Source of the DNA: a bacterium
GTDB lineage: Bacteria; Elusimicrobiota; Elusimicrobia; UBA1565; UBA9628
DNA: 37,591 nucleotides
Direction: 5' to 3'
Assembly: GCA_021806745.1 (NCBI GenBank)
Contig: JAJZQS010000016.1
Location: forward strand, 1 to 37,591
Numbering within the stretch: position 1 is the stretch's first letter; each line of letters opens with the position of its first letter. The notes under the pieces were generated by a model. That model was not told the DNA's origin. It saw nothing but the letters and a program-made list of their open reading frames with translations, and did not search any database. Both the position numbers and the translations under genes were made by a program. Shown one piece after another: positions 25,344 through 33,005 of this stretch.

Positions 25344-26789
25344 ATGACCACGCTCAGCGACGATACGGCGGTGCTGCCGGGCTACGCGGGCACGCGCGGA
25401 CTCAACGTCTGGAGCGCCGACGCGGATTTGCGCGACGCGGTCTTGCCCCGCCTCCCGGGCCCCGCGTCGGAAAAGCGCCTGCACGCGTTCGGCGCTCTGG
25501 TCGGCGGACGGCTGGGGGATTTGATCGAGACCGCTCACAAGCCCGAGAATCTGCCGCGTCTGCTCGAGCGCGAGATCGGCGGCGAACGCGCAGCCGAGAT
25601 CGTCTACTGTCCGGAGCAAATCGAGGCGCGGCGCCTGCTGGCGCGCGCGGTCTACGGGGAGCCGGGGCTGTCCTTGGTCGAACGCATGACGCTGTCGGTG
25701 CTGTCGAACTACGCCGGCGAGGGCGGCATCACCTGCCCGCTGGCGATGACCGAGGGACTCATCGGCCTGCTCGAGCGCCGCGGCACGCCCGAACAGCGGG
25801 CGCTGCTGCCGCGCCTGCGCGGCGACGACGCGGTCTGGGCTCTCACCGGCGGGCAATTCATCACCGAGCGCCAGGGAGGCTCCAACGTCTCGGCCAACGA
25901 GACCGAAGCCCGCCCCCTGGGCGACGGCTCCTACGCGCTGACCGGCGTCAAGTGGTTCTGCTCGAACCCCGGTGAGGCCTGGGTCACCACCGCGAAGGTC
26001 GCGGGAACGCCCTACATCGGGCTGTTCGTCGTGCTGCGGCGCGGAGCCGACGGACGCCTCAACGGCCACAAGATCCTGCGCAAAAAAGAGATCGGAGGCA
26101 CGCGCGGCAAGGCCACGGTCGAAGTCGAATACCTCGGCGCGCGTGCCGAGCTCGTCGGCAAGCCGCGCGAGGGGCTGGCGCTGCTCGTCGACGAGATTCT
26201 GTCGGTGTCTCGCCTGCACGTGGCCGGCGCGGCGCTGGGGTTCGCGTCGCGCGCGTGGCTTGAGGCCGAGACCTTCGCCGCGTGGCGCGTCGCCTACGGC
26301 CGGCGCATAGCCGACATGCCCTCGGTCAAGGCGCGCCTGGAGCGCCTGCGCCGCGAGCGGCGAGGCATGATCGCGGCGTTCTACGCGGGAGTGGACGCCG
26401 TCGCGGCCTCCGCGCCCGAGGCAGAGGCGCTGGTGCCCATGCTCAAGACCGAGGTTTCGCGCCGCGCCAGCGGCATGGTCCGCGAGGCCCAACTGCTCGT
26501 CGGCGGCCACGGCATCCTCGACGACTTCTCGCCGCTCAATCGCCTGGCCGACGACGCGGTGGTCAACGAGATCTGGGAGGGCACACACCCCATCCTGGCC
26601 GGACACGCCGCCAAGGCCCTGCGCCGCCCGCGCGTGCTGGAGGCGTTCCTGCGCCGGGTCGGCGACGCACCGCTGGCCGCCGAGCTACGCGCACGCGTCC
26701 AGGCCAGCCGAGCGTCCGCCGAAGACGAGCGCGCGCTCGCCGACGAGGGGCTGGTCTGTCTCGCCTACGAGGCGGTCGCGGGCGTCTAG
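25344..26789 (+). CDS. AidB-like acyl-CoA dehydrogenase
   Basis: The 481-residue flavoprotein is of the acyl-CoA dehydrogenase superfamily, nearest in layout to AidB. Recognisable parts are FITERQGGSNVSANETEA (FAD and substrate pocket), SYALTGVKWFCSNP, EIGGTRGKATVEVEYLGA, LLVGGHGILDDFSPLNRL and NEIWEGTHPIL near the C-terminus, where the glutamate is the family's catalytic-base position. AidB binds DNA and protects it from alkylation, while other members oxidise acyl-CoAs, so the reaction here is open. It lies 14 bases before the type III polyketide synthase and is probably co-transcribed with it, which favours a role in making or trimming the acyl starter. Confidence 0.88.
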   Translation: MTTLSDDTAVLPGYAGTRGLNVWSADADLRDAVLPRLPGPASEKRLHAFGALVGGRLGDLIETAHKPENLPRLLEREIGGERAAEIVYCPEQIEARRLLARAVYGEPGLSLVERMTLSVLSNYAGEGGITCPLAMTEGLIGLLERRGTPEQRALLPRLRGDDAVWALTGGQFITERQGGSNVSANETEARPLGDGSYALTGVKWFCSNPGEAWVTTAKVAGTPYIGLFVVLRRGADGRLNGHKILRKKEIGGTRGKATVEVEYLGARAELVGKPREGLALLVDEILSVSRLHVAGAALGFASRAWLEAETFAAWRVAYGRRIADMPSVKARLERLRRERRGMIAAFYAGVDAVAASAPEAEALVPMLKTEVSRRASGMVREAQLLVGGHGILDDFSPLNRLADDAVVNEIWEGTHPILAGHAAKALRRPRVLEAFLRRVGDAPLAAELRARVQASRASAEDERALADEGLVCLAYEAVAGV

Positions 26790-26803
26790 CCCGCGCGCCC
26801 GCG

Positions 26804-27934
26804 ATGCCGCCAAGCCGCTCCCCCGTCCACCTGAGCGGCTTTCGCCCTCTCGATTTCGGCACGCGCCTGGCCCAGCCCGACGCCGTCGCCTGGCTGAGGC
26901 GCGCGCTGGCGCGCGCTCACGCCGGAGCCTTCGGCCCCGCGCACAAGCGCGCGGATTCACTGTATGCACGGCTGGGACGCGGCGAAAGCATCGCGGCGCG
27001 CGTCAGCGCCGCGGCCGACTACGGGCAAAGCGATTGGGAACGCATGACTTTGTTCAAGCCCGCGGCGGGCGCGCCGTGGCATCGGCCTCCCCTGGAGACG
27101 CGCATGGCGCTGTTTGAAGAGACGGCCCTGCGCCTGGCCGAGGCGGCCTTTCCCGCGGGGGAGGCCGCGCCCGACGCCCTGGTTCAGGTCTCGTGCACCG
27201 GCTACGCCTCGCCTCACGCGGTCCAGCGCGTCGCCGCGCGGCGCGGCTGGACGCCGCGAGTGCTTCATCTCGGGCACATGGGCTGCTACGCGTGCGTGCC
27301 GGCGGCGGCCGCGGCGGCGGCGCTGGCGCGCGACGCGGCGCAAGACGGCGGCGAGGGCCGCGCCGCCGTGTTCGTGATCGAACTGCCGACGCTGCACCTG
27401 CGCCCGGAGGCCGTCGCCGACGAGCAGGTGGTCGTCAACACCCTGTTCGGCGACGGCGCGATCCGCTTCGACGCGAGCGTCGCCGAGCGCGGGCACGCGC
27501 TGGCCTTGCTGGGCACGGCGGAGACGATCCTGCCGTCGTCGGAAGACGAGATGACCTGGCGCCTGCGCGACTGCGCGTTCGAGATGACGCTCAGCCGCGA
27601 GGTGCCCGCGCGCGTGGGCGCGGCGGTCGCGGACTTCGCGGCGCGATTCCTGAAGAGGCACGGCCTGGCCCTGAGCGACGTCGCGCATTTCGCGATCCAC
27701 CCCGGCGGCCCGCGCGTGATCGAAAGCGTCCTGCGCGCTCTTGGCCTTCCCGAAAGCGCGGCCGCGCACAGCCGCGAACTCCTGCGCGAGCGCGGCAACA
27801 TGTCCTCGGCGACGCTGCCGCACGCCTGGGCGCGGATGTTGGCCGACCCCAGCGTGCGCCGCGGCGAGCGCATCCTGTCGCTGGCCTTCGGGCCGGGATT
27901 GACCGCGGTCGCGAACCTTTTGGAAAAAAGATGA
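26804..27934 (+). CDS. Type III polyketide synthase
   Basis: The 376-residue protein is of the chalcone/stilbene synthase-like family, which condenses an acyl-CoA starter with malonyl-CoA units. The complete catalytic triad is readable: C161 in HLGHMGCYACVP, H299 in AHFAIHPGGPRV, and N332 in ERGNMSSATLPHAW, at almost the same numbers as in plant chalcone synthase (164, 303, 336). Bacterial members with lipid starters make alkylresorcinols or alkylpyrones. No ribosome binding site is seen, so translation may depend on coupling to the upstream gene. The stop overlaps the start of the methyltransferase gene (ATGA). Confidence 0.93.
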   Translation: MPPSRSPVHLSGFRPLDFGTRLAQPDAVAWLRRALARAHAGAFGPAHKRADSLYARLGRGESIAARVSAAADYGQSDWERMTLFKPAAGAPWHRPPLETRMALFEETALRLAEAAFPAGEAAPDALVQVSCTGYASPHAVQRVAARRGWTPRVLHLGHMGCYACVPAAAAAAALARDAAQDGGEGRAAVFVIELPTLHLRPEAVADEQVVVNTLFGDGAIRFDASVAERGHALALLGTAETILPSSEDEMTWRLRDCAFEMTLSREVPARVGAAVADFAARFLKRHGLALSDVAHFAIHPGGPRVIESVLRALGLPESAAAHSRELLRERGNMSSATLPHAWARMLADPSVRRGERILSLAFGPGLTAVANLLEKR

Positions 27935-29148
27935 GTCCGCTGGGAGACCTGCTGGCCGCGCTGGCCCTGCCGCTGTCCGCGGCGCAGGCGGGCGTCATGC
28001 TGATCGACGAGGCGGTACATCATCGCCGTCGCGGCCTGGGCGTTTGGGAGGCTCGCGGCCACGTGCTGGACTCGCTGATCTTCGCGGCGGCACTGGCGCC
28101 CGCGGCGCTTCTTGCGCCGACGCGCGGCGCCGCGCTTCTGTTCGCGGCGCTGGCCACGGCTTCCAGCCTTCTGGCGACCAAGGACGAGTGGATCCACGCG
28201 GGCGAGTGCGCGCCCGCGGAGCACTGGATACATGCGCTTTTGTTCGTGTTGCATCCGTGCGTGCTGATCGCGGTGGGCGCGCTGTGGTCGCGCGGCGAAG
28301 GCCGGTTCCTGCGGACGGCCCTGCCGGCGCTGGCGCTGGGCTACGCGTTCTATCAGTGGGCGTATTGGCTGGCGGGGCGCCGCGCGCGGCCCGACGCGCA
28401 GGCCATCGACAACGCGTTCTACGACGAGCTCGGCGCGCTCTGGCACGAGGGCGACGCGCACGCGGTGGCGCTGCTGCGCGCGGAAACGCCCGTGCGCCTG
28501 GACTACGTGCGCTCGGTCTTCGCGCGCGAGGGCGTGCGGCCCGGCGCGCGCGTGCTCGACGTCGGCTGCGGCGGCGGATTGCTGTCCTTGCCTTTGGCCG
28601 CCGGCGGCTGGCGCGTCAAAGGCGTGGACCTCTCGCCCTCGTCCTTGGACGCGGCGCGCGCGCGCTTGGCGCCGGGCGCGGACGCGGAGTTTTCCGTGGG
28701 CGACGCGCTCGACTTGCGCGAGGGTCCCGACGCCTACGACGCGGTGTTGGTCATGGACCTGCTCGAACACCTGGAGGAGCCCGCCCGCGCCGTGGCCGAG
28801 GCCGCGCGCGCTCTCAAGCCCGGAGGCGTCCTGCTCTTTCACACCTTCAACCGCACGCCGTTGTCGTGGCTGCTGGCGGTCAAGGGCATCGGCCTGGTCA
28901 CGACCGGCGGGCCGCACAACGTGCACGTCTACCGCCTGCTGGTCAAACCCGCGGAACTGGAGGCCGCGGCTCGCGCGGCGGGACTTGAACTTCGCGGCTT
29001 GACGGGCATCCGCCCGGTCCTCAACGGCGCTTTTTTGCGCTCCCTTCTGCGCCGGCGAGTGCACCCGGGATTTTCCTTCACCTTGACCGCCTCCACGGCC
29101 GTGGGCTATCTCGGCTACTTCAAGAAGGCGGCGCGGGCTCGTGTATAA
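27931..29148 (+). CDS. Membrane-anchored UbiG-like methyltransferase
   Basis: The 405-residue product is a fusion. Residues 1-150 form about four or five membrane helices with a polar signature TKDEWIHAGECAPAEHWIHA followed by LLFVLHP. Residues about 180-405 are a class I SAM methyltransferase: RVLDVGCGGGLLSLPLA (about 207-220), VKGVDLSPSSLDAARARL, MDLLEHLEEP and LKPGGVLLFHTFNRT. The order resembles UbiG 3-O-methyltransferases of ubiquinone synthesis. Directly after the type III polyketide synthase, it probably O- or C-methylates a phenolic lipid held in the membrane. The stop codon TAA is part of the TATAAT promoter of nupC. Confidence 0.9.
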   Translation: MSPLGDLLAALALPLSAAQAGVMLIDEAVHHRRRGLGVWEARGHVLDSLIFAAALAPAALLAPTRGAALLFAALATASSLLATKDEWIHAGECAPAEHWIHALLFVLHPCVLIAVGALWSRGEGRFLRTALPALALGYAFYQWAYWLAGRRARPDAQAIDNAFYDELGALWHEGDAHAVALLRAETPVRLDYVRSVFAREGVRPGARVLDVGCGGGLLSLPLAAGGWRVKGVDLSPSSLDAARARLAPGADAEFSVGDALDLREGPDAYDAVLVMDLLEHLEEPARAVAEAARALKPGGVLLFHTFNRTPLSWLLAVKGIGLVTTGGPHNVHVYRLLVKPAELEAAARAAGLELRGLTGIRPVLNGAFLRSLLRRRVHPGFSFTLTASTAVGYLGYFKKAARARV

Positions 29149-31218: not shown

Positions 31219-31228
31219 ATTATATAAT
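31219..31228. promoter_or_regulatory. Palindromic -10 serving both strands
   Basis: ATTATATAAT is its own reverse complement. On the plus strand TATAAT (31223-31228) ends seven bases before ATG 31236; on the minus strand TATAAT (31219-31224) gives a 24-base leader before ATG 31194. It is isolated in a GC-rich surrounding, including a CGCGGCCGCGGCCGCG run at 31201-31216. Confidence 0.6.
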
Positions 31229-31235
31229 GAACGCG

Positions 31236-33005
31236 ATGGGCCAAGAGCGCGCCGCCGCGGTCGTTCTCTTTGACGGCGACTGCGGCTTCTGCCGGCTGTG
31301 GGTGGAGCGCTGGCGCGCGGCCACGGGTCCCGCGGTCGCCTACGAGCCCTACCAATCCGCGGCCGCGCGCTTTCCGCAGATCTCGCGCGACGAGTGCGCG
31401 AAAGCCGTGCACCTCGTCGAACCGGACGGCCGCGTGCGCCGCGGCGCGGACGCGGTCTTCGCGGCGCTCTCGCGCGCCGGAGGCCTCCAGCGTGCGTGGA
31501 GTTCTTTGTATGAGGCGAGCCCGCCGTTCCGACGACTGAGCGAAGCCGCCTACGCGTTCGTCGCCTCCCGACGGATTCTGTTTTCGCGCCTGACGAGACT
31601 CTTGTGGGGCTTGCCGGCGCCGCCGCCCGTCGATGGGACGCGCCGCGCGCTGCTGGCGGGGCTCGGGCTGTGCTACCTGCTGGCCTTCGCCTCGCTCGGC
31701 GTGCAAATCCGGGGACTCATCGGCGCGCACGGCCTTCTTCCCGCCGCCGACTTGCTGTCTTCCGCGGGCGTTCGACTCGGCGTTTGGCGCTTCTACCTGA
31801 TCCCTTCCCTCGCCTGGCTGAACTCCTCCGACGCCGCTCTCGTCGGCTTATGCGCGGCCGGCGCGGCGGCCTCGCTTGGCCTTGCCGCCGACTTCTGGGC
31901 GGGACCGTGCGCTCTGGCGTGCTGGGCCGCGTACCTGTCGCTGTGCGCGGTCGGCGGGGATTTCTTGAGCTACCAATGGGACGCGCTGCTGCTGGAGGCG
32001 GGATTGATCGCGGTCTTTCTGGCGCCGTGGTCGCGCCGCGCGCGCGCCCCGGCGCCGCGCCTGCCCCTCCTGCTCATGCGCCTGCTTCTGGCCAAGCTCG
32101 TCTTCGAGTCCGCGCTGGTCAAAATCTTGAGCGGCGATCCCGCCTGGCGCGACCTCACCGCGCTGAACTACCACTGGTGGACCCAGCCGCTGCCCACGCC
32201 GGCGGCCTGGTACGCGGCGCGGCTGCCCGCGCTCCTGCAAAAAGCGGCCTGCGCCGGGATGTTCGCCGTCGAGTTCGGCGCGCCGGTCCTGCTGCTCATG
32301 CCGCGCCGCCCGCGGATGCTCGGCGCGGCGCTCATCGCCGCGCTGATGACCGCCATCGCCCTGACCGGCAACTACGGCTTCTTCAATCTTCTGACGGCCG
32401 TGCTGTGCCTGTCGGCGCTCGACGACGGCGTCCGGCCGCTGCCGCGCCTGGCGCCCGCCGCGTCCGCGACGCCCGCCGCGCCGCCGCCTCGCGCCGCCGC
32501 GCGCGCGCGCGCGGCGTTCGCCGCGCTGTGGCTGTGGTCGAGCCTGGCCGGCGCAGGCCCGCTGGCGCCGCTGCGCTCGTTCAACTCCTACGGATTGTTC
32601 GCCGTCATGACGCGCACGCGCGACGAGATCTCCCTGGAGGTCTCCGTCGACGGCCGAGATTGGCGCGAATGGCCCTTCCGCTGGAAGCCCGGCGACCCGC
32701 GCCGCGCGCCGCCCTGGATCGCGCCGCACATGCCCCGACTCGACTGGCAGATGTGGTTCGCGTCGCTCGGCGCCCCGAGCCCCTGGCTTGCGGGCCTGTT
32801 CGCGCGCGTGCTGCAAGGCGAGCCCGCCGTGCTGGGATTGCTCGGCCCCTCTCCGCTGGGCGCCGTGCGCCCGCGCTACGCGCGCGCGGTGCTCTGGCGC
32901 ACGCGATTTTCCACGCCCGCCGAGCGCCGCGAAGACGGAGCGTGGTGGACCCGCGAACCCGCGGGGCTTTTCGCGCCGCCGGTCCGCCTGCGCGGACGCG
33001 ATTGA
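31236..33005 (+). CDS. DCC-family thiol-oxidoreductase fused to lipase maturation factor
   Basis: The 589-residue product joins two domains. Residues 1-125 are a DUF393/DCC thioredoxin-like domain with the motif DGDCGFC (D13 to C19). The rest is a multi-span lipase maturation factor-like domain: LRLGVW, FLSYQWDALLLEAG, LNYHWWTQPLPTPAAWY, GNYGFFNLLTAV, FNSYGLFAVMT, DGRDWREWPFRWKPGD and PHMPRLDWQMWFASLG. Animal LMF1 helps lipases fold in the ER with disulfide formation; bacterial LMF-like proteins are uncharacterised. An N-terminal thiol domain on the same chain suggests a redox role at the membrane. I use ATG 31236, because the ATG at 31227 is inside the TATAAT. Confidence 0.85.
   Translation: MGQERAAAVVLFDGDCGFCRLWVERWRAATGPAVAYEPYQSAAARFPQISRDECAKAVHLVEPDGRVRRGADAVFAALSRAGGLQRAWSSLYEASPPFRRLSEAAYAFVASRRILFSRLTRLLWGLPAPPPVDGTRRALLAGLGLCYLLAFASLGVQIRGLIGAHGLLPAADLLSSAGVRLGVWRFYLIPSLAWLNSSDAALVGLCAAGAAASLGLAADFWAGPCALACWAAYLSLCAVGGDFLSYQWDALLLEAGLIAVFLAPWSRRARAPAPRLPLLLMRLLLAKLVFESALVKILSGDPAWRDLTALNYHWWTQPLPTPAAWYAARLPALLQKAACAGMFAVEFGAPVLLLMPRRPRMLGAALIAALMTAIALTGNYGFFNLLTAVLCLSALDDGVRPLPRLAPAASATPAAPPPRAAARARAAFAALWLWSSLAGAGPLAPLRSFNSYGLFAVMTRTRDEISLEVSVDGRDWREWPFRWKPGDPRRAPPWIAPHMPRLDWQMWFASLGAPSPWLAGLFARVLQGEPAVLGLLGPSPLGAVRPRYARAVLWRTRFSTPAERREDGAWWTREPAGLFAPPVRLRGRD

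Follow-up and report, generated by a model that had tools for sequence, protein, structure and literature searches.

Several bacterial operons combine a type III polyketide synthase (PKS) with genes that modify its product. In those of the pkq type, a PKS acts together with a methyltransferase and with either a hydroxylase or an oxidoreductase to make methoxylated alkyl quinones, which are electron carriers (PMC9927152), and in the hid and Planctomycetota operons a PKS, a methyltransferase and an oxidoreductase make methylated resorcinols (PMC10896814). Type III PKS clusters (the T3PKS class of antiSMASH) have also been listed, without function, in Chlamydiae (PMC9666466), and one was found in Bdellovibrio bacteriovorus LR3 (PMC12843806). 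Here we describe a PKS locus in a 37,591-nt stretch of Elusimicrobiota DNA (GenBank assembly GCA_021806745.1, contig JAJZQS010000016.1; contig 51 of a 2.78-Mb genome assembly), referred to below as the window. Its PKS belongs to a cassette found in Elusimicrobiota, Chlamydiota and Bdellovibrionota, in which the linkage of PKS and membrane protein, with or without a UbiG-like methyltransferase, is well supported by the gene orders observed. What is new is an undescribed membrane component within a putative phenolic-lipid PKS operon; phenolic-lipid PKS operons themselves are known. The features of the locus are as follows.

25344-26789, + strand: AidB/ACDH-11-like acyl-CoA dehydrogenase (ACAD), from Pfam, NCBIfam and PDB matches; outside the conserved unit
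26804-27934, + strand: type III PKS of the ArsB/ArsC (alkylresorcinol/alkylpyrone) type, from profile, PDB match and residues
27284-27286, 27698-27700 and 27797-27799, + strand: PKS triad C161-H299-N332, from the translation
27557-27559, + strand: PKS W252, at the position of ArsB W281 and ArsC G284, from comparison with ArsB and ArsC
27931-29148, + strand: fusion protein with an N-terminal five-helix membrane domain and a C-terminal UbiG-like S-adenosylmethionine (SAM) methyltransferase
27931-28386, + strand: membrane domain, residues 1-152, of an undescribed family; a separate gene in Chlamydiota and Bdellovibrionota
28408-29130, + strand: UbiG-like methyltransferase domain, residues ~160-400; a separate gene in Chlamydiota, most Bdellovibrionota and Rubricoccaceae

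All three genes lie on the + strand. The ACAD stop codon is followed after 14 nt by the PKS, and the PKS and methyltransferase genes overlap in an ATGA. This tight packing, pointed out in a preliminary description of the window, was borne out by the open reading frame coordinates, as was the intact PKS triad, which is also retained throughout the cassette family.

Gene linkage across phyla and the dehydrogenase neighbour

We compared the locus with Elusimicrobiota metagenome-assembled genomes (MAGs). PKS orthologues at 62-89% identity were found in 5 of 58 relatives (G017, G010, G005, G011, G029); that of G010 is divided between two contig ends and that of G011 is apparently frameshifted. The methyltransferase gene follows the PKS in all five; of the trio proposed earlier, these two form a conserved pair. 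The ACAD precedes the PKS in none of them.

Relatives outside Elusimicrobiota were located by a whole-collection scan with the PKS alignment. In one Chlamydiae MAG (L092) the PKS gene is followed by one for a stand-alone protein that aligns with residues 19-146 of the window methyltransferase; the 90 nt of contig remaining past this membrane gene contain no methyltransferase domain. A membrane-domain profile was built and then run on the phyla of the Chlamydiota and Bdellovibrionales records. It matched 68 of 234 Chlamydiota genomes, as a separate gene, and 90 of 291 Bdellovibrionota genomes, a weaker PKS-free subfamily included. The separate proteins of the two phyla are ~150-170 aa long. As the membrane and methyltransferase genes are separate elsewhere, the Elusimicrobiota gene is a fusion of the two. 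Fusions ~45% identical to that of the window were also seen at two further Elusimicrobiota loci (L080 and L081, in genomes G026 and G032), flanked by an arginine-decarboxylase-like gene and a ribD-like gene.

The order PKS, membrane gene, UbiG-like methyltransferase, with small gaps, was found in 51 of the 55 Chlamydiota loci inspected. The four exceptions were two contig edges, one GNAT insertion and one locus without a PKS in the 436 nt available. The inserted GNAT acetyltransferase-like gene (L143) lies on the reverse strand between the membrane gene and the methyltransferase. In each of the 26 strongly matching Bdellovibrionota loci inspected, the membrane gene comes directly after the PKS, and 21 of them have the methyltransferase as well. 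In the other five (L191, L194, L197-L199), the PKS and membrane genes overlap by 4 nt and no methyltransferase is present, which makes PKS and membrane protein the core of the cassette. The weaker Bdellovibrionota subfamily (14 loci, L200-L213) is an orphan without a PKS; apart from the family itself, no gene was common to at least 3 of its 14 loci, so its neighbourhoods gave no functional hint. The membrane family was detected in none of 345 Bacteroidota genomes, a set that included no known positive, and no plasmid carriage was found.

The first gene of the row gave a different picture. The ACAD scored 65.7 bits with Acyl-CoA_dh_1 and slightly under the cut-off with AidB_N, its WEG-motif Glu is present (E412 in NEIWEGT), and its best PDB matches include AidB and ACDH-11. 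It had been proposed to prepare an unsaturated starter for the PKS, and in this genome the shared strand and the 14-nt gap speak for such a role. However, in the five relatives carrying the PKS-methyltransferase pair the ACAD lies on a different contig (G017, G010, G005, G029) or ~101 kb from the pair (G011). It is also common in genomes without such a PKS: a strong ACAD match was found in 16 of 19 genus genomes as against 5 of 19 for the PKS, and most ACAD carriers lack this PKS. Upstream of the PKS the relatives have a universal stress protein (Usp; G017, G010), polyphosphate kinase 2 (PPK2; G005), the arginine repressor (ArgR; G029, divergent) or topoisomerase VI subunit A (G011). With these changing upstream genes, and with the ACAD elsewhere in relatives, its adjacency to the PKS looks like a local accident of one genome. 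The conserved neighbours of the ACAD in relatives are instead clpP/hrcA/grpE/dnaK and a class I methyltransferase with a SIS-domain gene. Conservation of the trio had been set beforehand as the test of the proposal; since the ACAD stands apart in all five relatives, the trio is not conserved and was ruled out as a unit by synteny. A role of the ACAD in the conserved unit is thus refuted, and we regard starter preparation by this enzyme as very improbable.

Two observations concern these surroundings. At L062:6067-9311, L065:6939-10862 and L066:5076-8998, the ACAD lies next to clpP/hrcA/grpE/dnaK, together with genes for a ~285-aa class I methyltransferase and for a SIS-domain protein. Within the window, positions 31227-33005 encode a predicted fusion of a DCC1-like thiol-disulfide oxidoreductase and a lipase maturation factor (LMF1 plus LMF1_C).

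Type and predicted product of the PKS

The window PKS scored 59.6 bits with the Pfam model Chal_sti_synt_C (cut-off 27). The N-terminal chalcone synthase model of Pfam gave 19.9 bits, under its cut-off of 27, and a genome search with it was empty, so surveys relying on that model would overlook the clade. The best PDB match was Azotobacter ArsC, with 154 bits against 86 for the next; a Bdellovibrionota cassette PKS gave 218 bits with ArsC and again 86 for the next.

In this enzyme family the position of ArsB W281 and ArsC G284 determines whether resorcinols or pyrones are made, and replacing Gly with Trp shifts ArsC towards resorcinols (PMC6274091). The window PKS has Trp at this position (W252), as do all cassette PKSs, i.e. 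an aromatic residue as in ArsB. ArsC G284W outscored wild-type ArsC against the window PKS because of this Trp. The expectation of a lipid-type PKS was upheld by ArsC as best solved relative together with Trp at the resorcinol-determining position.

Alternatively, the PKS product could be an alkylpyrone or no lipid at all, to be modified by the rest of the cassette as in the Bacillus bps operon. The closest solved relative, wild-type ArsC, is indeed an alkylpyrone synthase. However, Trp takes the place of the ArsC Gly (G284) in the window enzyme and in all cassette PKSs; this same exchange turns ArsC towards resorcinols, and of the two ArsC forms G284W matches better. We therefore consider a pyrone or non-lipid product quite improbable.

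In a maximum-likelihood tree, the cassette PKSs of Elusimicrobiota, Chlamydiota, Bacteroidota and Bdellovibrionota formed one clade (100/100 support), separate from Actinomycetota PKSs and from the Elusimicrobiota paralogues that stand with a methyltransferase and a flavin adenine dinucleotide (FAD) oxidoreductase. Operons of that latter order, PKS, methyltransferase and FAD oxidoreductase, hid/pkq-like and with a PKS of a different clade, were seen in the same Elusimicrobiota genus (L038:2745-5661 and L039:7377-10416; G007, G018). One record labelled Chlamydiae (L112:4833-6080) contains a type III PKS with His for the triad Asn and no switch Trp; since this PKS falls among those of Actinomycetota, the Chlamydiae label may result from a binning error.

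The membrane domain and the methyltransferase domain

About 150 hydrophobic N-terminal residues precede the methyltransferase. The preliminary description took them for a tether of a UbiG-like domain. The UbiG-like part was confirmed (TIGR01983), but the N-terminal part proved to be an independent conserved family, which elsewhere is encoded by a separate gene that accompanies PKSs of the same clade. It has no Pfam or NCBIfam family. The FA_hydroxylase profile was found in only one of nine members (E 0.052, 14.4 bits, under the cut-off of 31), and at that score assignment by profile to the fatty acid hydroxylases, or to the histidine-rich membrane di-iron family, was rejected.

To examine conservation we aligned 90 sequences of three phyla, each either PKS-linked or fused, in which pairs were as little as 25% identical. 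A set of fifteen polar residues was invariant wherever aligned: Q19, D26, E27, H31, R34, E40, H44, D47, S78, K84, D85, H89, E97, H101 and H108. C93 was almost invariant. The invariant set includes four [D/E]xxxH motifs (E27/H31, E40/H44, D85/H89 and E97/H101). In the orphan Bdellovibrionota subfamily D26, R34, E40, D47, K84, E97, H101 and H108 are retained, D85 is changed to N, H89 to Y, H44 mostly to hydrophobic residues and H31 mostly to N.

AlphaFold2, run on the membrane domain with seven sequences, gave a model of five helices (12-34, 38-60, 65-92, 95-120 and 125-152; mean predicted local distance difference test score 85, predicted template modelling score 0.78). In the model the [D/E]xxxH motifs are placed at the end of helix 1, the start of helix 2, the end of helix 3 and the start of helix 4, on the same side of the membrane, and the ligand candidates of each motif share a single helical face. 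With five helices and a SAM-dependent domain at the C-terminus, the motif face would lie in the cytoplasm. The cluster is probably a dimetal site, judging from the conserved residues and the predicted fold.

Taken in this way, the domain resembles a metal-dependent enzyme more than an anchor, and the invariant polar residues across the 90 sequences disfavour a plain anchor. A non-catalytic tether, scaffold or lipid-handling module, which would hold the PKS and methyltransferase at the membrane or deliver the product, agrees with a membrane-embedded domain that is fused to the methyltransferase in Elusimicrobiota and stands beside the PKS elsewhere. A scaffold, however, would not require fifteen invariant polar residues at identities down to 25%; a free-standing membrane gene is kept even in loci that lack a methyltransferase to be tethered; and what the PKS-free subfamily has lost is precisely a part of the motif residues. 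We consider a non-catalytic role rather unlikely.

Slightly more weight may be given to the possibility that the membrane protein acts on the PKS product or in the pathway as an enzyme or redox partner of some other kind, although this too is unlikely. It could, for example, transfer electrons by means of bound haem or quinone, carry out a metal-dependent hydrolysis or decarboxylation, or act on the acyl starter. The linkage to the PKS and the invariant His/acid cluster are equally compatible with these functions (the five invariant His residues fit the haem or quinone option in particular), and no fold match narrows the chemistry. The bis-His haem sites of b561-type proteins are mid-membrane; the helix-end [D/E]xxxH motifs differ from these, which argues against the haem option.

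The methyltransferase domain scored 122.6 bits with TIGR01983 (UbiG), above the equivalog cut-off of 102.95, and UbiG was its best structural match. An ordinary ubiquinone-pathway UbiG would account for such a score. However, no UbiA or Ubi-hydroxylase exceeded its curated cut-off in any of 15 cassette genomes, this one included, while three control genomes passed, suggesting that the domain does not serve ubiquinone; the position of its gene is moreover tied to the PKS. The ubiquinone pathway was therefore ruled out as its context, and we give that assignment almost no credence.

Proposed pathway and known systems

We tentatively favour a phenolic-lipid cassette, a reading we hold to be somewhat short of an even chance, in which the PKS makes a resorcinol, a membrane metalloenzyme changes the ring and the UbiG-like domain O-methylates it. 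The PKS would elongate a long-chain acyl starter with malonyl-CoA and cyclise it to a 5-alkylresorcinol, as suggested by ArsC as nearest solved relative and by the Trp switch. The membrane domain would be a metal-dependent enzyme with its site at the cytoplasmic ends of helices 1-4, modifying the lipid-borne ring, most likely by hydroxylation, as a FAD oxidoreductase does in the pkq and srs operons. O-methylation of a ring hydroxyl by the UbiG-like domain would then give a methoxylated alkyl-hydroquinone, a quinone or a phenolic membrane lipid; the phenolic or quinone-like lipid suggested earlier thus remains plausible. The putative ring-modifying and O-methylating proteins are fused in Elusimicrobiota, and some Bdellovibrionota have no methyltransferase beside the PKS-membrane protein pair.

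Among the 21 cassette genomes outside Elusimicrobiota, seven have no FAD_binding_3 protein, so the cassette has no general need of such an enzyme. With only 7 of 21 genomes affected, universal absence of FAD hydroxylases could not be used as proof that they were replaced. We consider it somewhat unlikely that the membrane protein founds a new integral-membrane dimetal enzyme family, built on a helical bundle with four [D/E]xxxH motifs, which would take over from flavin hydroxylases the oxidation of type III polyketide lipids to quinones. Were this so, an unrecognised polyketide-quinone pathway would be common to many environmental Chlamydiota and Bdellovibrionota.

Several points weigh against the phenolic-lipid cassette. 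Metal binding and hydroxylation are read from the sequences and the seven-sequence AlphaFold2 model; Foldseek found no match below E 1 for the membrane-domain model in the PDB or BFVD (viral folds), so that no solved fold there resembles it; and the invariant residues could alternatively be haem ligands or proton-transfer groups. FAD_binding_3 proteins do occur elsewhere in the other 14 of the 21 genomes. Trp at the switch position is also frequent in non-cassette bacterial type III PKSs; it is thus not specific and was ruled out as a cassette marker. Finally, in Rubricoccaceae (L088, L089) only a UbiG-like methyltransferase comes after the PKS, with no membrane gene, and at L080 and L081 the membrane-methyltransferase fusion has no adjacent PKS, indicating that parts of the cassette can work apart.

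The analysis defines conserved partners for these PKS clusters, names residues for mutation and puts forward a candidate family of metalloenzymes that has no relative of solved structure. In intracellular and predatory bacteria, the product may be either an alternative carrier of electrons or a lipid that protects the membrane. The antiSMASH clusters of Chlamydiae and of B. bacteriovorus LR3 are probably the same loci as our cassettes; in the main texts of the two reports (PMC9666466, PMC12843806) we found no description of the membrane partner, the gene order or a product. In the open-licence literature we found no product assignment for type III PKS clusters of environmental Chlamydiota or Bdellovibrio, no description of the membrane partner or of the PKS-membrane-methyltransferase gene order, and nothing relevant on Elusimicrobiota polyketides, on Bdellovibrio chalcone-type genes or on a PKS combined with UbiG and a membrane protein.

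Among characterised systems, ArsB and ArsC of Azotobacter vinelandii are the closest solved PKSs, with a Trp/Gly switch that sets alkylresorcinol or alkylpyrone (PMC6274091). Unlike the cassette, the ars operon obtains its starters from a dedicated fatty acid synthase. We know of no membrane-protein or UbiG partner in that operon. The cassette methyltransferase differs from UbiG proper in being fused to or placed beside a membrane protein, in genomes where no gene of the ubiquinone pathway scores above cut-off.

The cassette resembles pkqABC of Mycobacterium smegmatis and Streptomyces sp. MNU77 and the phenolic-lipid operon of Streptomyces griseus in combining a type III PKS for long-chain resorcinols, the product expected here, with ring modification and a methyltransferase (PMC9927152), and their PKSs share Trp at the same switch position. 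Those operons, however, have a separate oxidoreductase or hydroxylase, whereas the cassette has an undescribed membrane protein and a UbiG-like methyltransferase. With hidABC of picocyanobacteria and the Planctomycetota operon it shares a three-gene type III PKS layout with a methyltransferase and, presumably, a long-chain alkylresorcinol core (PMC10896814). The conserved unit contains no oxidoreductase and in this respect departs from the three-gene composition of both pkqABC and hidABC: where the hid and Planctomycetota operons have a FAD-dependent oxidoreductase, the cassette has the membrane protein.

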